Assembly (NCBI GenBank): GCA_021234155.1
Contig: JAJEKV010000006.1
Span: forward strand, 11,873,318-11,937,317
DNA length: 64,000 bases
Direction of reading: 5' to 3'
From: Isoetes taiwanensis
Lineage: Eukaryota > Streptophyta > Lycopodiopsida > Isoetales > Isoetaceae
The notes under the pieces are model-generated. The model worked only from the letters and a program-made list of their open reading frames with translations. It searched no databases and had not been told where the DNA came from. The position numbers and the translations under genes were made by a program. Positions 8,660-62,764 of the stretch are shown here, piece by piece (the first letter of the stretch is position 1; every line of letters begins with the position of its first letter).

Positions 8660-10260
8660 TTTGACCCACCCCCATTTCTAGCTACCCCTTCTGAGACGCA
8701 ACCTCTACCGAATCCAGCTCCCTCCCGGCTTTTATCATTTTTCGACCCGCAACCGCCGGGACATAAATTCTGAAAGGAAAATCTTCCACCCCGCCATCTA
8801 CAATTGGAAGTATCTTGATCCGTAACCAGGGTCGGTGAGTTTACATCATTAGTAGGTTTGATAGCCATCGCGATATCCTAGGTATACATATACCAGATAT
8901 GCCGCCAGCGCAAACCATAAACATGGGTTTGCTCCCCTAGGGGCAACCCAAAAATGTGATTTGATTAACTAAACTTCCATTGCCGAAAAGGCGCGAAGGA
9001 GAAAATCAGCAAGGTATAACTCGCCAAGCCCGCTTATGCAGCCACCAAGGCTGTATTCTCCTCGCCAAGATGAAGATCCCAATTTGATGCATTCATAAAC
9101 CATAGAGTGTAAGTAAGCTCATTGACAAAATAAAATCATGTTGTTGTTACATGACTGCGATTCTTCACACGCCTTCTGCCTCAACCACCCGCATCACCGC
9201 CGAGAAGGCGGCCATAAAAGGACGCTCACAAATTTCAAGAAGCCAAAAGCTTGTAGGTGTAGAAATTTTCATACTTTGGAATAATGATTAAGTCAAATGT
9301 TGAAATTTTCGACTCATGTGAACGATCTCCACATTCTCAACTAAATGGTAAGTGCTTCTAACTTATCAATTATTTAGGTCCATTGTAACATGAAAAATGT
9401 GGCAAAATGCCTTTCGGCCGTGTTTACCTGCCTAGTATTTTATATCGCCTTGTACTTCTACCATTACTTTGAAATTATACCATCCGGCCTATGCAAATAC
9501 AAACGTGATTTTAGTTGTTTTCCTATACTACAAGCATCAACTGAGCAGACAGTATATTGTCCGGTTAACAAAGTCATTTCTCCTAAAGGGCCTGCCCAGA
9601 TATTCCTACTATTTTTTGCATCTTGGCAAAATGTAAATATATACTATTTATTTCTTTGCCAAACCCAAGATATCATAAATCCAAAATATACCCGCTTCGA
9701 GATCCATACATCCGCCATTGGGATCCGCCATATTTGGTAATAGAGTTTGCAAGGCAAAGACGGCCTGCATCGCTTCATTCAAGTAATTAGGTTTTGTCTC
9801 GATGCAACTCCCCGCAAGAATGGAGAGCTTTAATCAGCTTAAAAATGAGGCTTAAATAGCTCTAACTCGAAGGATTTCTTTGTACCTGATTGCTCCTATA
9901 TAAAACGCTTCGGATTCGATCAGAGGCTTTCCTCAATCGCCAAATGCAGCAGGGTCTGCTCTGAGGAAGAGCTAAGAACAAAAAAATTCTTTTTTGGAGA
10001 AAGCTCTTCGGAGATAAGAGTCAGAGAAATCTAATTCTAAGCATTACCATCAGGATATTCCAAGTTCAAAAAATTATGGCCTTTGTGAAACCTTTCCGAG
10101 ATTCGAGTGAGAACCCTTCCTGACAGGAAATTTAAAGGGTTTGCTTTTTTGTTTTTTAATAATAACCCCAATGGAGGGAGATAGTGTGAGTTTTATAGTT
10201 GGGTGAACCAAAAAGCCTCGTGAAAATAATCTCGCCTATTAATCGGCTTCACGTACCGGG
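8660..10260. other. Unassigned non-coding region
   Basis: No recognisable domain or repeat pair. A 116-codon frame at 9390-9740 has a hydrophobic start but no family resemblance I can name, so it is not called as a gene. Confidence 0.35.
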
Positions 10261-52492: not shown

Positions 52493-53560
52493 TGTGATGT
52501 TTCTAATCCAACGAGCATATATTCATTTTCATGCGAAGAGGATCTTATTGTAAAAACTGTATATGACAAAGAAAGATTATCAGAGCAAGAATGTACAAGT
52601 ACACCTTTTCAACAAATTGAGTTGCACAAATCGTAAGAATAAATGCTAAAGCGAGAAAGGAATCAGATATAAATTGATGAAAACCAAGCTTATAAATTAC
52701 AAGGCCTAGATGCAGCGATTTGATAAGGCTAATGCAACTAAGATTTTAAAACAAGGAGCCTGATCCAACTTAAAAATAAAATAATCAAAGCAACAGACAA
52801 ACCGTTCCTCTCTATAACTCATTCCTTTCTGCATTCCAATCAACTGCATAGAAAGAAAACAATACAGCGAAATGAGAAAGGAAAATAAGAAAAAAAAAAA
52901 CAAGAAACATTGGTGCAAACTCCTTCAAAATTCATGCCATGTTCTTCATTTTTATACTGCGTAGTTTTCTTTGACCTTGACTGTCATATGTAACTAAACG
53001 AGAATGCATTTCAATACCTTATGCAAGTATCTTCTGCAGTACTTACAACTCCTTTGAGGTCTAAAATTGCACGGGATTGAAGAATAGGTCTTCCAGCTTT
53101 CTTAGAACAAGCAGAAGATTTCCATTCGATCAGTACCTCCCGTTCTTTGATATGATACATAAGCATCCAATCCATACTTATGATGAAAATAGGGTATATT
53201 TCCTGCATTAGTTGCCGCTACAGAAACTTGAAGATCTATGCAAAACAGGGTTACAATATTACATCCAATTACCTGTTTCATTAGCAACAGCCATAACCAG
53301 ATATCATCACAATATATCCTCATGGCCTGTAACGATCCATTTTGAACCTTATTCCCATTTTCGAGCTAGAAGCATGTTCTGATGGTCAAGAATTTAAAGT
53401 GTCTAATACTCAGAGCTGCATCATTTCTGATTTTCCAAGTCCTTAAAACATGTGCCCATCAAAATTTCCAAATCCAATTGAAATAAAGTATCGCAAAACC
53501 TGATTCGTCCTGAAGCAACTGGCATGTGCAATCCTTCATCGATATATTGAGCCCAATTGT
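52493..53560. other. Unassigned non-coding region
   Basis: AT-rich, only short frames, no recognised motif. It continues the target sequence of the LINE insertion. Confidence 0.35.
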
Positions 53561-53566
53561 CCCAGT

Positions 53567-53655
53567 ATTGAGCCGCCCCCCATCTTTGCTTCTAGGATTG
53601 AGCCCCACCGCCGCTTTGCCTCTGTATTGAGTCACTCCGCCGCTTTGCCTCTAGG
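53567..53655. repeat. 29-30-bp tandem repeat
   Basis: Three units start ATTGAG at 53567, 53597 and 53626 and end CTTTGC(C/T)TCTAGG or a variant. A partial unit starts at 53546. The array lies 160 bp before the RT element. Confidence 0.9.
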
Positions 53656-53810
53656 TAAGATTAAAAGTGCCATGCCTTAACAGTTTGCTTTTGCCGCATT
53701 CAAAAATTTAGACCATTGAGTTTCTTTATTTTTGTTTGCACCATTGGAGCTTGCATTTTGATTTCTGTTCAAAAAATATATGGTCATTGATCTCGCAGAA
53801 TCCGGGGAAA

Positions 53811-55302
53811 ATGAAAAAAGAAAAAGGTAAGGTGACAGTTAGGAAGAACACACGGTACGAAGGACACGTCTTGGGCTTGACGGATTATAAATAACAGGAA
53901 TGGCTTATGCTGGAAATAGAAGAATTCTTAAGAGCAGGGGCCGAAACCCTGCTCTAAAAATGGTAAGGAAGAAGGGAGATCTAAATCTTGCTACACGCAA
54001 GAGATTGGCGGAAGAAAAGAGTAAGGAAGGTGGTAATGTTAAGAAGATTTTTCAGTTTCGTACCTCTGTTATTAGTAAGGGAATCAAGGCTTGCAATACA
54101 GAGATCAATCTTGATGATGGTCCCAGTAATGAAAAGGAGATTGCAGGTTTGAGTAAAAATCCTGTGCAAGCAGAGAAGGATCCGGAGGTAGTAGTAGATT
54201 GTTCCACCAGTAACATGCATGTAGCTGATGAGAATCATGAGCAAATTCAAGATCAAGGCCATGCTGGAGCAAACAAGGAGAAACAGGGAAATAGGATGCG
54301 CATCACTAAGGTTTGATAGGATACAAATTTATTAGATCTATACATATGGAAAAATTGTATATAATATTGTCAATATTTGAGATAGAATTTGGCTGTTAAA
54401 TTATGTGGCCTGGCCTTGTGGATCTTTCTGACCTTCTAATTGCAGGATATTATGGAAATAGTGTGATGTAAAGCATATAATCATAGAATGACTGGATCTA
54501 AATGACCTTCTATGCAGGATTATTTATTATGGAATTAGTGATTTAAGCTTAAGGCATATTTTGATAGAATAAAATATGCAAGTTACTGATTATGGAGATC
54601 TGCATTCATGCTGTGTTTTGCTATAAAATAAGATTCCCAGATTGTCATATGAAGATGTAGCTTTAGAAATGCTATAGTGTATGTAGGCTACATGATCTAG
54701 GGATCTTTGTATTATTGCTATGCTTTCTTTTTCAATTGAATGCTAGCAAGGTGAAAGGGGAAAACCTTAAGAAAGCCCATGACGCCTGCTATCCCATTCT
54801 TGTTCAACCATTCTAATGCTTGTTCTGGTTTGTGGGTGCAGGTAAGAGGCTTTCTTACTCTTTGTTAGTGTATTCTACAACAAAGTATGTAAACAACAAG
54901 CTGGGAGCAAATTTGACCCAGATCTGAAGCTTTATCAGATATTGTGTTAAAATTATACATGTACTTTATTCTATCAGTTCAAAATGGTAAGGATCTTTTG
55001 TTAAATCTTTAAATTTCATTTGGAAAGTTAAAGGTACAGTAAGGGCAAATGATTTTACATTGCCTAAGTATATCAATACATGTGTTACTCTTAAAGAATT
55101 AATGAAAGGAGTTTCTGGCAGTAAGTTTATGGCATTACTTTTGGTCATTAATTTTTGTTAAAAGAAGTCAATATCTATCTGGTCATGGCCTAGTTGTAAA
55201 TAGTACCTGATTATGATTAGGGCTGCCAATTGGTCTTAGTATTTACCTTCCAAAGGTCTTTACTGGACAAAAGTCTGCAGAGGCGGATTTAAAGGTTTTT
55301 TT
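53811..55302 (+). repeat. 1.49-kb direct repeat, copy 1
   Basis: Starts ATGAAAAAAGAAAAAGG and ends GGATTTAAAGGTTTTTT. Matches 59742-61212. It holds the first coding exon and most of the putative intron. No TG...CA ends, primer site or polypurine tract border it. Confidence 0.95.
53900..54310 (+). CDS. RT element, basic N-terminal exon
   Basis: Starts at the ATG in GGAATGG, a good plant initiation context, 17 bp after a TTATAAATA stretch. The 137 codons are highly basic at first (KSRGRNPALKMVRKKGD, then a K/R-rich segment) and acidic later (residues about 75-120). I recognise no fold; nucleic-acid binding by the basic part is only a guess. The open frame ends with a TGA six bases past a possible splice donor AAG|GTTTGA at 54310/54311. 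The donor is in phase 0 with the acceptor at 55422. Confidence 0.6.
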
Positions 55303-55422
55303 ATCGTATTTCAGTTTATTAGTTTTACTAATAACCATGATCAAGATAGTATAATCTTTCAGGTACAATAAATATGGGACCATTGATTTATATACTAAGA
55401 ATTTCTTTCTGTGTGGATTTAG
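54311..55422 (+). other. Putative 1.1-kb intron of the RT element
   Basis: The donor GTTTGA is weak. The acceptor is good: a pyrimidine-rich stretch (TTTCTTTCTGTGTGGATTTAG) followed by GATATTATAC. Joining the exons keeps the frame (ITK then DIIQSEDQD). The interior is AT-rich and has no long frame. A second AG acceptor exists at 54451 (TTGCAG|GATATT), so alternative boundaries are possible. Inference only; transcript data would decide. Confidence 0.5.
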
Positions 55423-56381
55423 GATATTATACAATCAGAAGATCAAGATGTGTATAATCACTGGATCAAGGAGCTTATTATGCTTGAGTATGACAAATGC
55501 AAAATTAGCAGCCCCAATATGGCAGTACAAACCATTATTGGATGTATTAGGAGCAAGGATGTGCATTCGTATATTACTTTCAAAGAATCAAACCTTCTAG
55601 ACAAAAGTCTGTCACCAGTGTCTTACCTGGGATTTAGTGGATGGTTTGCAAGATTCCAAGCAATGAAGAAGGTGAACTTTGAATTCTCAAAATGTAAGGA
55701 TATTTTGGCTGACACTTATAGCAGTATGAGGAGTATTCTGTATCAGAGGACATGTTCGAAAGATGAAGCAGCAAACAAATTTATGATTGGTATCATGGCA
55801 CTGGAAAAAGCCAATGACATTAAGCCTCTTACATTTGGTAAGGAAGATACCTCCAGCAAACAAAAACTCAGCAAGATAAAAAAGGACATGGCAGATAGTT
55901 TATTTTCTGAAGTGGACCTTACTGATGAAGACATGCTGAGTATAGGATACAGCAAGAAGGAGCTGATTTCTCAAAATGACTCCACTAAAAACTGCAGAGA
56001 GGATAACAAAGTACCTGAGCTTAATCTCTCTAATTCCACTTGCTTTCCAGTCATAATCGAACAAACAGTGGAATGTTATGCTGTCTTATATGACCATGCC
56101 ATATGGAAGAGCCAGAATTTTGGCGCTTTAGCACCCATAGATGTTGACACATGGATTGCTCTTGCAGGAATTTCATCTGATGAGATAAGGACTGCCAAGT
56201 ATGCTGCACTTAAATTGGAAAAAACTTTCGAGACTCTTGAGGTAAATCTGCCATTTAAAATGGATTTCTTTGAGCAAAATTGCATAGTGAATGCTCCAAT
56301 AGAGATCAGTCGAAAAGGCCATATGGCTTTCCCAAATATTACCAGAGATGATTTTTTCTTAAAAGAATGTGGAGAACTCAT
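55423..56381 (+). CDS. RT element ORF, middle segment
   Basis: Open without stops from the acceptor (DIIQSEDQD), with the frame continuing to 56493; a shift to the next frame near 56381 restores more conserved sequence. The segment has no catalytic motif I know. Features seen: a GWFARFQ segment near 55640, a lysine-rich stretch about 55850-55890, LAGISSDEIRTAKYAALKLE near 56161-56220, and an ECGEL start of a Cys cluster at the end. The uninterrupted length of over 320 codons, against decayed neighbours, indicates recent selection or a young copy. Confidence 0.7.
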
Positions 56382-57219
56382 TGTCCATATTTTAAATGTC
56401 TATGTGAGAAGACCAAGTTCTCGTACAAGAAGAATAAAGATGATGAATGCAAGTGTGGAATTGTGTGGTTTGATCAAGGCATGTGGTTTCTGATCAACCA
56501 CTTGGAAATGCTTTATCCTGGATCCTCCCCTATGTAAAAAATGGTTATTTTTTCCAAACTGCTGAACAAAGAAATGAGGGATGCTGTTTTAGCATACATA
56601 TCATACCTTGAAGTCAGGAAAAATTTGATCAGCATGACTATATCTTTTGCTAATTACCCGGAAAAAAATCTGAAAGCTCTCTTTGGTAACAACAAAATGG
56701 CAGACATTGCTGAAAAGATGATCAGACCAGTCAGCTTTCTAAAATGCAAGAATTCTGCTAATCGAGCTGAGTTTTGGGATAGAAAGTATTCCAAGATTCC
56801 CAACAACTCAAATGAACAAGGAAAAATCATAATACCTAGGCTGCCACCCAGGATCACCATGGACCCAGGAATGTTGACGGAAAAAGGGCATGGAGCTATA
56901 AAAGACAACAATGCCAAAGACATGGAAGAGTATTCAATTACTAAAGGAGGAAATCAGATTATTTCACTGGATGATGAAACTCTTTCAAAGCTGGATTGTG
57001 TTCCAGACTCTCAATAGAGAGGTCTCTGATTTTCTGATATACCTAGCCAAGGGATGTTTTATCAGTTTACCCTATGTGCTAAGGAAACTTTTTGTAAAAA
57101 ACTGATATACATTTTGTCTGATGCCATTTGGCCTTTAATCCAAATTTTACTTTCTATAATTGAGCTACCTATGTGTTGTACATTAAGTCCTGATTTAAAG
57201 TTTTTTTGTAGGCTGAAAA
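56382..57219 (+). CDS. RT element ORF, Cys-rich module (two to three stops)
   Basis: Reading from 56382 gives CPYFKCLCEK, then ECKCGIVWFDQGMWF, so the cluster has C-x4-C-x-C ... C-x-C spacing and could bind zinc. The frame has a TAA at 56535, then is open to 57017 (158 codons from the ATG at 56541) and has further stops at 57015 and 57027. After these, sequence from 57054 (MFYQFTLCAKETFC ... SIIELPMCCTLSPDLKFFC) is again coding-like to about 57219. The TAA lies next to a run of A, a likely site for consensus error. Confidence 0.6.
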
Positions 57220-57220
57220 T

Positions 57221-57859
57221 ATGAAGATCAGAACGATTGTTAAAGATGTCAACAGATATAGACATCTCAGCACTATCGACACAGACTCAGATAAAAAGAT
57301 AATACATATGACATTTTTGTCAAAGGTATTAGATGCATTTAGCATCAAAAGAATGTTTCATACAGTCCTATATGAGGTGTTGCAGGAAAGAGGTACAGAA
57401 TTAATAGATAACACAATCTTTGCATGGAAGTACATCGATCAAATAAGAGATGTGGTCTACAAACCTTTTATGGTTTTTGCTGATGGGTCTGCTAACAAAT
57501 GTCCTTGTAGCAACCCGAACTTAGAGAGATTCATTGACAAATCTATTGGGCACATTAGAACTACCAACCTGGAGATCATCCATAATGTCAAATTAAGAAA
57601 GGCTTTTTCTTATGGACTAAATCATATTCCAGATCATAGTCTGAGTATACAAGCATTTATGGAAGAATTTGAAACATTATGTCAACAGTTCTTCAACGTA
57701 CATAAGTTTGAACTTCTGGACCTTACTGCTACTGATATTCAGAATATTAATGCAATGCTCCAACAAATAGCTCATGCTGAGATTATGGAGTTAAAAAGTA
57801 CAATGCAGACCAAGAGATTTCTGTGGTTAGACCAAGAGGCCGGAGAAAATAAGAAGTGA
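57221..57859 (+). CDS. RT element ORF, GHIRTT...GLNHIP module
   Basis: 212 codons. It starts KIRTIVKDVNRYRHL, has FADGSANKCPCSNP with a C-x-C pair near residue 93, then GHIRTTNLEIIHNVKLRKAF and GLNHIPDHS. The C-x-C, then G-H-(V/I)-x-T-x-(D/N)-L-x-I-(I/V), then L-R, then a G-(P/L)-N/K-x-(R/I)-x pattern precedes the RT in the related orphan RT ORFs known from animals and protists. Its function is unknown to me; it probably belongs to the same polyprotein. Confidence 0.7.
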   Translation: MKIRTIVKDVNRYRHLSTIDTDSDKKIIHMTFLSKVLDAFSIKRMFHTVLYEVLQERGTELIDNTIFAWKYIDQIRDVVYKPFMVFADGSANKCPCSNPNLERFIDKSIGHIRTTNLEIIHNVKLRKAFSYGLNHIPDHSLSIQAFMEEFETLCQQFFNVHKFELLDLTATDIQNINAMLQQIAHAEIMELKSTMQTKRFLWLDQEAGENKK

Positions 57860-58049
57860 TGAATAAGAATCAGATAAGTTGCAAGATTTATATGCGCAAG
57901 ATTTATTATCGAGATGGCTATATGCAGACTCAAAAGTGACGATTTTGAAAGATGTATACAAAAGCCCTATAGAATAAAAGACAATTGCGTAGCGATATTT
58001 GGAAATTTATCGACACTTTATGTATGTAATGTAAAATTTATCATATCTT

Positions 58050-58504
58050 ATGGCAACATTCAAAGCGCATAAAGGTGAATACAGATGGCTGACGAATGCA
58101 CATAATACACTATACACAGACATAGCTAAAGTTGTCACTGGCATTTTGAATAACTTTATTGAAATATGGCCTAACATTTGCTTCAAGATGACAGCAAAAT
58201 ACAGAATATGGAGTACCAAAAGAATTAATGCATGTTGGATGGTCAACTCATCGTATGATCTGATACTGAACCTCCCAAACAAAGTGCATAATGTCTTCTC
58301 AGCCGACATAACGAAATGTTATGAGAATATCCCTTTATTTGGGGAGGATGGAATCATAGAGATATGCAATGATATCTCTGACATGATTTGGCAATATATG
58401 AGAGAAGAAAAAACATACTTTGACATGTTAATCAAATGCAAAAATGATAATATAATTGTTGTGGGCCAAGATCTTGGAAAAGTAAAGAGTATGTTAGCTG
58501 GAAA
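58050..58504 (+). CDS. RT element ORF, RT fingers and palm A motif
   Basis: A stop-rich gap of about 190 bp separates this from the previous segment. It begins MATFKAHKGEYRWLTNA, the usual K-x-(R/K)-x-x-(I/L)-x-(A/G)-x entry of this RT group, and runs into FSADITKCYENIP at about 58296-58333. The aspartate of ADITKCYENIP is in the position of RT motif A, the first catalytic metal ligand. The frame ends after SMLAGN and the RT continues in the next frame (TTG at 58505), a one-step frame change at a shared junction. Confidence 0.8.
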
Positions 58505-59257
58505 TTGATTCCTAAAGAAAAATTTAAGGATATGAATACTTGGTTGCTATGCAATTGTTATCTGCAGACAGGAAATGACATTTGGAAACAGGTGAAAGGG
58601 ATTCCCATGGGTTTTGCTTGCAGTCCAGCCTGGTGCAACCTATATCTTGCATGGTTCGAACTCAGATTTATTCTAAAACTTGCCCATTATGGGAGAATGA
58701 ATGATGTGTACAGATTCCAGCATACTGCAAGATATATTGATGACCTAATTATCATTAATGGTGGAAAAATTATGGAATTTTTAACAGAGGGTGCTGAACA
58801 TACAATCTACAACATGAAATATCTTGGAATAAAGGAGGAAACGGAATATGCATATGGACGTAATAGTGAATATGCAATAGGCATGAAGTGCAACTTCCTA
58901 AATATTACTATACAGGTCAATGATTACATCAAGGGGATATTCAAAGTCACAAGATATGACAAGAGGACTAAGTTACCTTTTGAAGTCAATAAGTATATCA
59001 GGGCTGACAGCTGTAGACCATTTGGCCAAGCATCTAGAGTCATTATTTCCCAAATTATGCCCTATGTTTATGCCCACTCTGAAGCATGGGATGCTGCTAA
59101 AGACATATATGGGCTCATAGAGGCATTCAACAAGAATGGTTTCCATAAAGCAAAAATATCTGAAATGGTTTTGGATGTTCTTGAAAAAGAAGAGTTTCCA
59201 GGTATTCTCTACTCAATAACAGATATGATTAGGATATTAAAAAGCATTATGGAGTAA
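58505..59257 (+). CDS. RT element ORF, RT palm B/C motifs and thumb
   Basis: The 250 codons hold GIPMGFACSPAWCNLYL (58598-58648, motif B) and ARYIDDLII (58727-58753, motif C with both catalytic aspartates). An FLNITIQV block (about 58900) and VTRYDKRTKLPF (about 58945-58985) follow, then an IISQIMPYVYAHS segment, and the frame ends ILKSIME. All expected catalytic residues of an RT are intact. No RNase H or endonuclease domain follows the thumb. The conserved Y-D-K-R-x-x-x-x-F block after motif C separates this RT from LINE, Copia and Gypsy types. Confidence 0.88.
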   Translation: MIPKEKFKDMNTWLLCNCYLQTGNDIWKQVKGIPMGFACSPAWCNLYLAWFELRFILKLAHYGRMNDVYRFQHTARYIDDLIIINGGKIMEFLTEGAEHTIYNMKYLGIKEETEYAYGRNSEYAIGMKCNFLNITIQVNDYIKGIFKVTRYDKRTKLPFEVNKYIRADSCRPFGQASRVIISQIMPYVYAHSEAWDAAKDIYGLIEAFNKNGFHKAKISEMVLDVLEKEEFPGILYSITDMIRILKSIME

Positions 59258-59280
59258 GCAAGTAATAAAATATAGGTAGG

Positions 59281-59309
59281 GTAGGGCCTTGGTGAGAACA
59301 AGGCCCTAC
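59281..59309 (+). other. Perfect 11-bp hairpin after the RT stop
   Basis: GTAGGGCCTTG (59281-59291) and its exact complement CAAGGCCCTAC (59299-59309) are separated by a 7-base loop GTGAGAA. It starts 24 bases after the RT stop codon at 59257. Possible roles are an RNA 3' end structure or an RT recognition site; neither is shown. Confidence 0.95.
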
Positions 59310-59741
59310 TCTCCTTGTTGTCACCATAAAGACTTTCAAAATAACTGGCCCCCCTGACCTACGGTAGGAGGCAGGGTTTTTTATTATAAGTATAATCACA
59401 TTGTGAAGTACAAATACTAATGTGTAGATTTGAAAGATACAGGAAGCAGGGAAACATCTGCTTGAGAAATGATGCATTGGGAATAGAAGTTTGGCAAAAG
59501 AATTTCTCCCACCATGGGGGTACCCTGGGAAATGAATAAAACAAATACAGAGTTACTACATGACATGTATGGCAGAATAATGAACCTTTGCTTTGTCTTT
59601 TGGACATAGACAATAGACAAAAATATTGGCTTATGGACTTAACATCTTGAAAGTTTTTTTAGGGCAAGAGATATCGATAGCATTGCTTGGCTGCCTGGAG
59701 ATAAACGGATGGAAAAGGGCATCACGAATACCTACATCTTG

Positions 59742-61212
59742 ATGAAAAAAGAAAAAGGTAAGGTGACAGTTAGGAAGAACACACGGTACTAAGGACACGT
59801 CTTGGGCTTGACGGATTATAAATAACAGGAATGGCTTATGCTGGAAATAGAAGAATTCTTAAGAGCAAGGGCCGAAACCCTGCTCTAAAAATGGTAAGGA
59901 AGAAGGGAGATCTAAATCTTGCTACACGCAAGAGATTGGCGGAAGAAAAGAGTAAGGAAGGTGGTAATGTTAAGAAGATTTTTCAGTTTCGTACCTCTGT
60001 TATTAGTAAGGGAATCAAGGCTTGCAATACAGAGATCAATCTTGATGATGGTCCCAGTAATGAAAAGGAGATTGCAGGTTTGAGTAAAAAACTCGCAAGG
60101 CAGAAGTGATCCGGGAGGGTAGTAGTAGATTGTTCCACCTATGAATACAAATAAGGAAATATGAGAATCATGAGCAAATTAAGATCACATATGCCGACAA
60201 ACAAGGAGAAACAGGAAATAGGATGGCGACTACTAAGGTTTGATGATACAAATTTATTAGATCTATACATATGGAAAATTGTACAGTCATTGTCAATATT
60301 TGGCTAGAATTTGGTCATAAATTATGTGGCCTCGGCTTTTGTGGATCTTTCCTCGACCTTCTACTGCGGATATTATGGAAATAGTGTGATGTAAAGCATA
60401 TAATCATAGAACGACCTGGATCTTAAATGACTCTATGTGATTGTCATTATGGAATTAGTGATTTAAGCTTTGGCGTATATTTTGATAGAATAAAATATGC
60501 AAGCATCGATTATGAGATCTTATCTTATGTCACGGTTTGCTATAAAATAAGATTCCCAGATTGTCATATGAAGATGTAGCTTTGTAGTTCTGCCATAGTG
60601 CTGTATATGATCTTAGGATCTTTGTATTATTGCTATGCTTTTTCTTAATTGAATGCTAGCAAGGTGAGAAGACCTTAAGAAAGCCCATGACGCCTCGCCA
60701 TCCCATTCTTGTTCAACCATTCTAATGCTTGTTCTGGTTTGTGGGTGCAGGTAAGAGGCTTTCTTACTCTTTGTTAGTGTATTCTACAACAAAGTATGTA
60801 AACAACAAGCTGGGAGCAAATTTGACCCAGATCTGAAGCTTTATCAGATATTGTGTTAAAATTATACATGTACTTTATTCTATCAGTTCAAAATGGTAAG
60901 GATCTTTTGTTAAATCTTTAAATTTCATTTGGAAAGTTAAAGGTACAGTAAGGGCAAATGATTTTACATTGCCTAAGTATATCAATACATGTGTTACTCT
61001 TAAAGAATTAATGAAAGGAGTTTCTGGCAGTAAGTTTATGGCATTACTTTTGGTCATTAATTTTTGTTGGGTAGTTGGCTATCTATCTCGTCATGGCCTA
61101 GTTGTAGCTAAAATCTTTATTGGCGATTAGGGCTGCCAATTGGTCTTAGTATTTACCTTCCAAATGTCTTTACTGGACAAAAGTCTGCAGAGGCGGATTT
61201 AAAGGTTTTTTT
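59742..61212 (+). repeat. 1.49-kb direct repeat, copy 2 (ends in LINE poly(T))
   Basis: Nearly identical to copy 1 over 59742-60095 and 60690-61066 but patchy and indel-rich between these. The copied first exon (from 59831) is broken after codon 85 (SKKLARQK). It merges at its right end into the poly(T) of LINE B. Confidence 0.95.
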
Positions 61213-61733
61213 TTTTTTTTTTTTTTGAGGGTAAGGTTATATGTATATATTAAATGTAGGAAAATTATGTACAATATGAGTAGAGAAGTAGTTATAGGAG
61301 TCACAACACATGTACTAAAGGGAGCATCTCCTCGTCTCTCCCTAATCGCTAAAATTTATAAGGGAAGTCACCCATTTCACCAAAAGGCGTGTACTATAGA
61401 GAGAAGCAAGCAACTCGCTCCAATCGCTGGATCCCTGCTACATGATATCCTTAGTTCAATATAGAGTACCGCTTGATCATTAGTAGCCCCTTCTGCCCAT
61501 ATTACTTGAAGACAACCTAATGATACTTTGAAGTAGGAGTAGACCGCAAGGTCCCTAGTCTATCAAGCTCTTTTGTTATAGTTTATACCATGCTCTCGTG
61601 ATGGGATAATGCCATGAGCGCAACTCTCCGAAAGGAAAGAGTTTCTTAACTTCATTATGGATGGTCCTCGACCACCCAAGGCCATACCACAATGGTGTTT
61701 TACATGACCCATGCTCCAGTTTACTAGAGGCCT

Positions 61734-62009
61734 CTATACATCACCCATCTCGTGACTGGGCACTCGCCAAACCAATTGGTGTACCATAAGCCCAATAATG
61801 GGACTGACCCATTGCCAACACTCTGTGATCATAGGGCAGAAGAAGAGGTGCCCAATAGATTCAGTGACATGACCGCCAAGTGGACACCTGTCGCCAACCA
61901 CAATACCTTTATTGAATAAGCTTTCCTTTGTACTTAGTCCCCCTTGCAGAGCTATCCACCTGAAGAGTTGTATCTTCCTATAGCACATAGACTTCCAGAA
62001 GTTAGCCAA
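61734..62009 (-). pseudogene. LINE reverse-transcriptase zinc-binding domain (zf-RVT)
   Basis: The minus strand reads W-K-S-M-x-x-R-K-I-Q-L-F-R-W, then L-S-T-K-E-S-L-F-N-K-G-I-V-V-G-D-R-C-P-L-C/G-G, then ESIGHLFFCP. This is the plant zf-RVT pattern (R-I-x-x-F-x-W-x ... L-x-x-R-x-x ... C-x-x-C ... E-x-x-x-H-L-F-x-x-C). The second Cys of the first pair is replaced by Gly. Remarkably intact for 90 codons. Confidence 0.93.
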
Positions 62010-62764
62010 AGCATTGTTGGCAACTGCATGCTCACCCCGAGCCTAGCCTTAGCTATCAAGAGAATAACCTTGCATAATGCACGATAAATCCTGGCCACAC
62101 TATATTCTGTATGTCCTTCAAATAGCCATTGATCACATGGACCCACAATACCGGCCCACAGGACATTCACTAGAACTCTTTAGTACTTTGGCGATCTCTC
62201 TTCACAGGGCCCTGATTTTACGCTTGAATGTGGTCCAACAAACCCATCTACCATTCACCCAAAGATGTTGCAAGGTTGTTATTCCACAATCCTTCGATTT
62301 GATGAAGATACGTGGATGAGAGAGTGCCAATGGGAGACTCTCTCTCCCCCATATCTTGGCATTCCGCACAGGGTCAATCCACCGCCTCCCCCGGCGATCT
62401 TGATAGGTGAACAGTGTTGCATATCTATCCAAGCTTGAGGATCTTTCTCATTACATGAATGCCCATGCCACCTTGAAGCTATAATACAAAAGCCCCACCA
62501 TATCCGAAGCACGGGTTTTCCATGAGCTTACTCTACCGCATTTTAACTTAGGCCTCGGCCGGGAGTCCTGAAGCTGAATAATAAGAGAGCTTTTGCATCC
62601 TAGTCCACCATCCCTTTTATCACGACAAAGCTCCCCCATTCCACTTTTACCATGCCCCCCAGATGAATTCTCTTATGATAACTTGCATTTGCTATATAGA
62701 TCCCTTTCGCAACCATGACTAATGAAGAGTAGATATGAGAGGCAACTAGCACCGCATTAAGCCA

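Follow-up and report, generated by a model that had tools for sequence, protein, structure and literature searches.

A 64,000-nucleotide stretch of the Isoetes taiwanensis genome (hereafter, the window) contains a reverse transcriptase (RT) gene that is followed by a second, same-orientation copy of the DNA with which the element opens. The question raised by this locus is whether the repeat is an integral part of a mobile element and, if so, which kind of retroelement carries it and how it would be copied. Penelope-like elements (PLEs), the group to which the locus had been tentatively assigned, make up a third class of retroelements in eukaryotes. They probably have a common origin with telomerase, and the formation of their tandem copies is still unclear.

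Layout of the element in the window

The repeat reported in the preliminary description was recovered by alignment of positions 53811-55311 with 59742-61221 (90.3% identity over 1522 columns including gaps, with some 300-nt blocks at 99-100%). Its length had been given as 1.49 kb, but alignment to other copies shows that the downstream repeat, R2, already begins at 59377, with T6ATTATAA directly after GGAGGCAGGG, and that the upstream repeat, R1, is 5'-truncated and lacks the first ~365 bp of R. R2 ends at 61205 (AAAGG) and runs into a T21 tract; the borders of R are T6ATTAT at the start and AAAGG-T7 at the end (Table 1). In agreement with the earlier view that R is not a normal LTR, it includes a coding exon (E1, MAYAGNRR...) and has no TG/CA ends. 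By contrast, the supposed absence of a polypurine tract did not hold, as the purine-rich GGTAGGAGGCAGGG lies directly 5' of R2; such a tract precedes R2 at 19 of 23 loci by script, plus C952 by eye. A role of this sequence as a functional polypurine tract would be speculative.

The reading frames of the window copy are broken. The divergence between R1 and R2 at 60090-60700 (dense small indels) is probably due in part to residual nanopore error; nanopore reads and pilon were used for this assembly, according to its description (PMC8566536).

Table 1. Features of the element and its 3' flank in the window
Feature	Position	Strand	Basis or remark
R1, 5' terminal repeat (pseudo-LTR), 5'-truncated	53811..55302	+	Repeat alignment and other copies
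E1, initial coding exon, ATG present (MAYAGNRRILKS...)	53900..54313	+	Candidate 5' splice site AAG/GTTTGA at end, putatively spliced
Best-conserved R block	54688..54934	+	DNA comparison (32 other partial matches at 77-86%)
T7 (U7) tract after AAAGG, R end	55296..55302	+	Putative internal start site of reverse transcription
HP1, 8-bp stem, three-base loop, just 3' of U7	55316..55334	+	Covariation
E4 exon, frameshifted in window copy	55423..57014	+	Alignment with intact copies
E5 exon, reverse transcriptase; stop and frameshift in window copy	57212..59257	+	Alignment with intact copies
3' structured RNA region before R2, ends in purine-rich GGTAGGAGGCAGGG	59275..59376	+	Crossing helices
T6 tract, R2 start at C-R junction	59377..59382	+	Alignment
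R2, 3' terminal repeat (pseudo-LTR), complete	59377..61205	+	Alignment
E1 second copy within R2; frame lost after ~92 aa	59831..60109	+	Exon-like coding sequence
T21 tract, 3' outer border in genomic poly-T target	61206..61226	+	Sequence
Antisense LINE 3' part, zf-RVT 61734-62039	61227..62039	-	Putative extent and tail

A family of related elements in Isoetes taiwanensis

The element is one member of a large family of mobile elements with introns, apparently in the quillwort Isoetes. All 14 coding copies examined in the Isoetes taiwanensis genome have the repeat-coding-repeat (R-C-R) or a tandem form. The duplication is not unique to this locus; uniqueness would have spoken against the original proposal. 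Seven of these copies were chosen with knowledge of R matches (the window copy, C1064, C1076, C930, C1067b, C952, and C922) and seven solely for intact E4 and E5 (C1034, C1027, C1072, C1007, C919, C1038, and C1068). Nine more copies with intact E4/E5 were retrieved without flanks; in two of these, L025 and L036, the C-R junction was not seen within the ~400 nt available. Genome-wide, the junction pattern CCTACGGTAGGAGGNAGG has 274 exact matches (134 on one strand, 140 on the other), compared with one for the reversed control; the repeat-coding-repeat pattern is far beyond chance.

Within one element, R1 and R2 are mostly 95-99.8% identical (99.8% in C1076, 90% in the window), whereas R, which is 1.8-2.4 kb long, differs strongly between subfamilies, and the RTs of the family are 53-92% alike. 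Tandem arrays (C952, C922, and L057-L059) and one solo R were also found, and copies are recently dispersed in the genome. A 650-bp repeat flanking C1064 was considered as a long target duplication and rejected because its left copy is not adjacent.

Coding exons and affinity of the reverse transcriptase

The E4 open frame spans 507-552 aa (17 intact copies aligned) and contains a Cys cluster, CPYFxCxC...CxC; Pfam gives no convincing match for these 17 sequences. E5 encodes the RT of 677-699 aa (20 intact copies aligned), with an RYIDDL active site and, ahead of the RT, a CPC motif that is invariant in 20/20 sequences. The E5 frame opens at TAG/G in 17 of 18 copies and that of E4 at TAG/GA in 15 of 17, and an ATG before the conserved block is absent in 15/17 E4 and 9/18 E5. 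These intron-like splice signals agree with the intron keeping that had been claimed for the locus as a PLE trait, and suggest that introns are retained in the copies and spliced from the RNA. A conserved coding exon E3, for which U7 would have served as 5' splice site, was also considered and dropped, several copies having stops there (by eye). The dN/dS ratio was low (0.04-0.12) in scorable pairs among 11/20 E5 and 8/17 E4 sequences, many pairs being saturated.

Pfam searches detected no GIY-YIG domain in 17 E4 and 20 E5 sequences at E<=1 or in the window E1 at E<=5, thresholds that a very divergent domain could escape. No nuclease domain of any kind was found in the element proteins, and neither RNase H nor integrase was matched in Pfam by E4 or E5 proteins. 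For the E4 and E5 pieces of the window, structure prediction from the single sequences was unusable (pLDDT 32-33).

When the profile of the family RT (A1) was compared with 512 sequences, the eukaryote-like RT L056 ranked first (E 6.5e-22), with a provisional animal RT sequence at 2e-20; the telomerase (TERT) of the same genome (E 0.0019) and a provisional canonical PLE sequence (E 0.0091) were weak matches. A firm affinity to a LINE or LTR family, which would have counted against the proposal, was not seen in this ranking: among the other ORFs of the window, which include short LINE pieces, none scored better than E 1.6. Scans with single RT proteins matched a CRISPR-associated RT model (4e-6 and 1e-5), a group II RT model (7e-5 and 2e-4), another RT model (1e-3), and one unrelated model (0.14). 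Because group II and CRISPR-associated RT models match too, the affinity to PLEs and TERT is not exclusive.

No relatives of the family RT were detected in viral, prokaryotic, phage, or plasmid sequences at the sensitivity of the search, and the provisional PLE and animal RT sequences, used as bait, had no match in viral contigs. In genome contigs, the provisional animal RT pair retrieved one relative, L056; L056 and these animal RTs may be Naiads. Against PDB, the window piece had five chance-level matches, L056 had one, and the profile had none.

Taken together, the R-C-R layout, tandem arrays, solo R, intron-like structure, 5'-truncation, and RT ranking favor the Penelope-like identity, of a type poorly described in plants, put forward in the preliminary description, but the GIY-YIG domain of most PLEs, as detailed above, was not found. 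The family looks like a distinctive Penelope-like branch, a tentative placement derived from a profile ranking in which TERT and the provisional PLE sequence scored weakly.

RNA signals beside the U-tracts

The RNA has two conserved structures with compensatory changes, one just after T7 and the other just before T6. For the first, HP1, 97.1% of the cells are paired and 23 double-change cells were counted, compared with 6.2 in shuffles and 20-56% pairing in slid controls. The underlying alignment (A6) has 13 rows: C930, C1067b, and C952 were omitted as near-identical to C1076, C922 was entered once of four, and L058 has no recognizable HP1. In the 3' region, two helices cross, GUAGGG/CCCUAC and (C)AACAAGG/CCUUGUU(G), with 97.6% of the cells paired, 7 double-change cells versus 1.5, and 32-62% pairing in slid controls. 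This alignment (A4) includes 18 of the 19 matches from 23 loci scanned, C930 being omitted as a near-duplicate of C1076; the scan missed C952 (frame), C1068 lacks T6, and no match was obtained for L025 and L036.

Intact E4/E5 are missing from three tandem arrays, one of which retains an RT fragment. All three keep U7 and the 3' structure, and two of them, L058 being the exception, keep HP1. A further hairpin before T6 (P3, CCUA/UAGG) was dropped by eye because its inner pair is not kept. Rfam searches found no hammerhead in the window (53000-62500, E<=10), where seven sub-threshold matches belonged to unrelated families, and no hammerhead or other known RNA in L010, L057, and L059 (E<=1). The purine tract before R2 and the position of HP1 after R1 also mimic the layout of an LTR element.

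Ends and targets

The 3' outer ends lie in the T-run of R at all 13 readable loci, with 13-30 T in 12 of them, and none of the 13 is in telomeric repeats. The 5' outer start clearly falls at a T-run at 11 of 13 loci, with 10-27 T; of the other two, the start of C1068 is not clear and the window copy is 5'-truncated. C922 and C1038, the ends of which lie beyond the sequences retrieved, are excluded from these counts. In the 64-kb window, there are two runs of >=12 T, one of which belongs to the element itself. The family inserts into T-runs, among them the tails of other mobile elements: the C1047 retroposon shows such targets, with both occupied and empty T-runs, and the target in the window is apparently the poly(A) tail of the antisense LINE, which probably continues beyond 62039. 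The exact C-end motif runs into >=11 T only twice in the genome, compared with the 274 C-R junction motifs, so the usual 3' terminus is U7 rather than U6.

Proposed mechanism and alternatives

Considering these observations jointly, we find it likely that this is a Penelope-like element in which reverse transcription begins within an unspliced RNA, at U7, with poly(A) DNA ends as primers; the U7 start, the transcripts, and their splicing are deduced from genomic sequence. The unit would consist of R (the pseudo-LTR, which holds the first exon and, presumably, the promoter) and C (E4 and the RT exon E5), and the template would be an unspliced tandem-type RNA (R-C-R-C...). The RT would recognize HP1 and begin at U7, immediately upstream. 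Its primer would be a DNA 3' end within a poly(A) stretch, as in a LINE tail that has been nicked, and this end would pair with U7. R, C, and R would then be copied leftwards as far as U6, the boundary that the structured RNA marks; there, the A6 of the cDNA could pair again with the T's of the target. The R copies would match each other because both come from one homogenized source. Internal initiation in the 5' part of the ORF at AT-rich DNA has been measured for a PLE, in the account of PMC11167929.

Translation would proceed from spliced RNA. Since U7 and HP1 both precede the E4 3' splice site, such RNA would contain neither of them; by the same token, templates would be unspliced and introns would be kept. 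Since a single R-C-R has no HP1 after R2, full-length templates would derive from tandem arrays, circles, or template jumping. No nuclease domain that could make the nick was detected in the element.

A broader reading, possible but decidedly tentative, is that of an endonuclease-less lycophyte PLE branch that lives on the poly(A) DNA ends of others, with opened LINE tails as primer. The template would be exclusively unspliced, U7 and HP1 lying ahead of the 3' splice site, and spliced RNA would be translated; the boundary RNA would be of a new structured, perhaps self-processing type, and non-autonomous units would parasitize the system through the same signals.

Alternatively, synthesis could start at U7 on a unit-length RNA, copy R as far as the 5' end of that RNA, jump onto another RNA at its 3' end, and then copy C and R. 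Such jumping would explain the sharp C-R junction without poly(A) and, both R copies coming from similar RNAs, their match. However, template jumps often leave untemplated extra bases, whereas the same structured RNA and T6 are present without such bases at 19 of 23 junctions by script, and tandem arrays yield the same product without a jump; we therefore consider this route unlikely. It is quite unlikely that R is a true LTR that strand transfer generates from one template, minus-strand synthesis being primed in the HP1 region and plus-strand synthesis at the purine tract. This scheme would account for the R1/R2 match within elements (99.8% in C1076) alongside the divergence of R between subfamilies, for the conserved signals exactly inside both repeats, and for the solo R and tandem arrays, but it is at odds with the missing Pfam matches to RNase H and integrase, the absence of TG/CA ends, the outer ends in T-runs, the 5'-truncated R1 of the window next to a complete R2, and a profile ranking that, in a comparison set without verified LTR RTs, places telomerase and PLE next after the closest relative. 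An ordinary retroelement duplicated once by unequal crossing-over, with a repeat that has no role, is highly improbable: R-R recombination or tandem insertion does occur, as the tandem arrays show, but layout, borders, and flanking RNA signals are common to the 14/14 copies examined in a family with RTs 53-92% alike.

At least a hundred-odd matched copies with sharply defined borders are available in this family, along with two RNA signals that covary and non-autonomous derivatives of natural origin; in combination, these point to the sites at which reverse transcription starts and stops. The family would also add to a record of PLEs in plants that is still patchy, and would show a target class, T-runs including LINE tails, for which a dedicated nuclease domain has so far not been detected.

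Comparison with known systems

With Penelope/Poseidon elements, as described for PAc of Anolis (PMC11167929) and Adineta Penelope (PMC3846280), the quillwort family shares the pLTR-ORF-pLTR and tandem layout, a pLTR that holds the ORF start, intron keeping, and 5' truncation; the AT-rich target is shared with PAc (PMC11167929), as would be the proposed internal initiation by the RT, which in PAc lies towards the 5' end of the ORF. The pLTRs reported for two Adineta families are 193-218 bp long (PMC3846280), compared with 1.8-2.4 kb for the quillwort R. The quillwort family further differs from Penelope/Poseidon in that no GIY-YIG or hammerhead was found, the putative start site, U7, is able to pair with the target, and E1, E4, and E5 split the coding part between them.

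The Naiad/Chlamys PLEs have a CxC motif before the RT, pseudo-LTRs, and an N-terminal permuted GIY-YIG; they are biased to simple repeats, are not known to carry a hammerhead, and occur in the green lineage. The quillwort family resembles them in these traits, its CxC-type motif being CPC in 20/20, except that no N-terminal GIY-YIG was found at thresholds that a divergent domain could escape; it also differs in its E4, which has no convincing Pfam match, and in its poly-T target. Naiad/Chlamys elements are the subject of Craig et al. 2021, a work cited in PMC9033089.

EN(-) PLEs are listed for Selaginella in PMC9033089. As characterized in PMC6431247, EN(-) PLEs (Athena, Coprina, and Terminons) resemble the quillwort family in that no endonuclease was found, in having more than one coding unit, in tandem arrays, and in a short primer-complementary stretch adjoining an RNA fold. 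Unlike these elements, which are located at telomeres and pair by telomeric repeats, the quillwort family, in which no hammerhead was found, occupies T-runs within contigs and would pair through U7.

Finally, the quillwort family shares with Copia and Gypsy LTR retrotransposons long matched direct terminal repeats, a purine-rich tract before the 3' repeat, and solo repeats, but it lacks TG/CA ends and an integrase or RNase H match, and is set apart by a coding exon within its repeats and by ends in T-runs.

Copy number, layout and conservation

The preliminary description reported a direct duplication of the 5' end of the element after the RT gene, and this was confirmed: the two terminal repeats (R1 and R2; see the table) match at 90.3% over 1522 alignment columns, and 300-nt blocks within this alignment are 99-100% alike. 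Small indels relative to R1 are closely packed in one segment of the window, which is probably unpolished long-read sequence. The Isoetes taiwanensis assembly, built from nanopore reads with pilon, is described as totalling 1658.30 Mb and comprising 204 scaffolds and 909 contigs (PMC8566536); the sequence searched here for copies comprised 1,658,258,908 bases in 1110 contigs.

The duplication is not unique to this locus. The R-C-R layout, where C is the coding part between the repeats, or a tandem form of it, was found in all 14 coding copies examined, seven of which were picked knowing their R matches and seven solely on intact E4 (Cys-cluster exon) and E5 (RT exon). Loci C952 and C922 are arrays, R1 of C1038 is interrupted and also cut by the end of the sequence slice, and C1047 is a solo R. 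Among nine further intact-frame copies, fetched without flanks, the C-R junction was not found in the fetched sequence of two (L025 and L036).

The family is large, recently active and real. Genome searches yielded at least 144 scored matches among 3157 candidates with an RT fragment and at least 114 among 3145 with E4. Intact frames span 507-552 aa in E4 (17 copies aligned) and 677-699 aa in E5 (20 copies aligned), the RTs being 53-92% identical to the first sequence of the alignment. With 11 E5 and 8 E4 sequences as input, dN/dS was 0.04-0.12 across both exons in the eight listed scorable pairs, in seven of which dS is about 1 or higher. Copies C1076, C930 and C952 lie on separate contigs with unlike flanks and are 95-98% alike in C, and therefore moved recently.

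Coordinates of features in the window and at other loci
Feature	Sequence	Positions	Strand
Element	window	53811-61212 (preliminary description)	+
R1	window	53811-55311 (aligned part)	+
R2	window	59742-61221 (aligned part)	+
Indel cluster	window	60090-60700	
Terminal T21	window	61206-61226	
zf-RVT of LINE	window	61734-62039	-
650-bp stretch, left and right	L009 (reverse strand)	19-672; 8851-9510	
RT-peptidase fusion	L056	1-2640	
RuBisCO large subunit frame	C1052	5415903-5416829	
RuBisCO large subunit frame	C840	20428-21354	

Borders and insertion targets

R starts with T6ATTAT or a near variant, with a purine-rich stretch directly ahead, and in most copies ends in AAAGG-T7. Outer ends were scored at 13 loci, leaving out C922 and C1038, which lie partly beyond the sequence slices. 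The 3' outer end is the T-run closing R at all 13 loci, with 13-30 T at 12 of them; at C1076, T6 is followed by T-rich sequence. The bases preceding the terminal run differ in C930, C952 and C1047. The 5' outer end is clearly a T-run (10-27 T) at 11 of the 13 loci; of the remaining two, C1068 is ambiguous and the window copy is 5'-truncated. Only two runs of at least 12 T occur in the 64-kb window, one being the element's own. The genome holds 274 exact C-R junction motifs, compared with one match for the reversed control, and only two exact C-end motifs that run into at least 11 T. Around the C1064 element, a 650-bp stretch (97.6%) is present on either side, the left one not adjacent.

The T21 of the window is followed by an antisense LINE (zf-RVT, 5.2e-11), and we infer from its position that it is the poly(A) tail of this LINE. 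The T-run in which the solo R of C1047 terminates belongs to a different retroposon (40 scored genome matches, itself counted); in six of six other fetched copies of that retroposon, the T-run, interrupted in one, leads outward into non-R flank, as judged by eye. By the same inspection, the 3' flanks of C930 and C952 contain LINE-like frames in the orientation of the element, which makes LINE tails one but not the sole source of T-runs.

Coding parts

The open frames start in frame at TAG|G for E5 (17 of 18 copies) and at TAG|GA for E4 (15 of 17); branch-point-like CTAAC or CTGAC motifs were seen by eye upstream of E4 or E5 in many copies, and an ATG ahead of the conserved block is absent from E4 in 15/17 and from E5 in 9/18. 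Because of these features, E4 and E5 are read from the sequence as putative exons. In the aligned copies E4 stops shortly past its conserved end, which is why we propose that both may be joined to one shared 5' exon by alternative splicing. In all 20 E5 proteins the RT matches RVT_1 and is preceded by an invariant CPC. E4 contains a cluster of Cys residues; in Pfam, none of the families was matched by more than two of its 17 members.

RNA signals and non-autonomous arrays

Immediately 3' of U7, the U-tract ending R, lies a stem-loop, HP1, with an 8-bp stem and a three-base loop. Over 13 rows, 97.1% of cells are paired (slid controls, 20-56%) and 23 cells carry double-sided changes, compared with 6.2 in shuffles. 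Ahead of T6, the T-tract at the C-R junction, the crossing helices GUAGGG/CCCUAC and CAACAAGG/CCUUGUUG are paired in 97.6% of cells over 18 rows (slid controls, 32-62%), with seven double-change cells versus 1.5 in shuffles. The alternative for this 3' region, a longer simple hairpin, pairs nearly as well (97.4%, three double-change cells), and folds of single sequences chose nested forms; hence the region may form a pseudoknot or a switch, both of which are candidates.

Three tandem arrays, L057, L058 and L059 (periods ~3.2, 3.8 and 2.8 kb, respectively), lack E4 and E5, except that L058 retains a piece of the RT. The T-tracts, U7 among them, and the 3' structure persist in every array; HP1 is kept with additional paired changes in L057 and L059 and is not recognisable in L058. 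U7, HP1 and the 3' structure are taken to be the cis-acting core.

RT relatives and placement

The family RT profile was run against 512 sequences. The top matches were L056 (6.5e-22) and an animal RT (unverified sequence; 2e-20), followed by the plant's own telomerase exon (0.0019) and a canonical Penelope-like element (PLE; unverified sequence; 0.0091); the best other window ORF scored 1.6, the LINE pieces of the window being short and the set containing no verified LTR RT. In hhalign comparisons, the profile scored 98.6% against L056 over 388 columns, including a motif preceding the RT, 69% against the canonical PLE (unverified sequence), 36% against the telomerase exon over 57 columns, and 0.3% against a window LINE piece. 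Single family proteins also match group II RT models (7e-5, 2e-4) and CRISPR-associated RT models (4e-6, 1e-5). The related animal-type RTs are, we assume, those of the Naiad clade. The 3.8-kb contig L056, assigned to a gammaproteobacterial bin, is probably eukaryotic DNA.

Several further observations concern the sequences searched. The RT of L056 carries a ubiquitin carboxyl-terminal hydrolase (UCH peptidase; PF00443, 5.6e-27) as a C-terminal fusion. Telomerase RNA-binding domain matches occur at two genome loci (L039 and L040), and long RuBisCO large subunit frames on C1052 and C840 are possibly plastid DNA in the assembly.

The family is best filed with PLEs. The Penelope-like membership proposed initially is supported by the layout, and the ranking of RT relatives is consistent with it. 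Two features looked for were not found: GIY-YIG had no Pfam match in 17 E4 proteins, 20 E5 proteins or E1 of the window (the first coding exon inside R), and Rfam detected no hammerhead in window positions 53000-62500, L010, L057 or L059. No description of the quillwort family was found in the open-licence literature on PLEs in plants, and the word Penelope is absent from the main text of the genome papers of I. taiwanensis (PMC8566536) and I. sinensis (PMC10541799). Dryads are described in conifers and endonuclease-lacking EN(-) PLEs in Selaginella and conifers (PMC9033089), and Chlamys PLEs in a brown alga (PMC12477816).

Mechanism and comparison with known PLEs

Within C1076 the two R copies match at 99.8%; between C1076 and C1067b, C matches at ~91%, but no R pair above 80% is among the matches listed. 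By this sequence comparison R1 and R2 evolve together, which points to a single template in each cycle, such as would be supplied by tandem RNA, a circle or jumping.

For one PLE, reverse transcription is reported to initiate at AT-rich cleaved DNA from an internal RNA position within the 5' part of the ORF, which is held to account for the genomic tails (PMC11167929). The quillwort family fits this scheme, with U7 as the putative start; unlike the start described for that PLE, U7 has the complementarity to pair with a poly(A) primer. In EN-less PLEs, a short stretch beside an RNA fold is reported to pair with telomere ends (PMC6431247).
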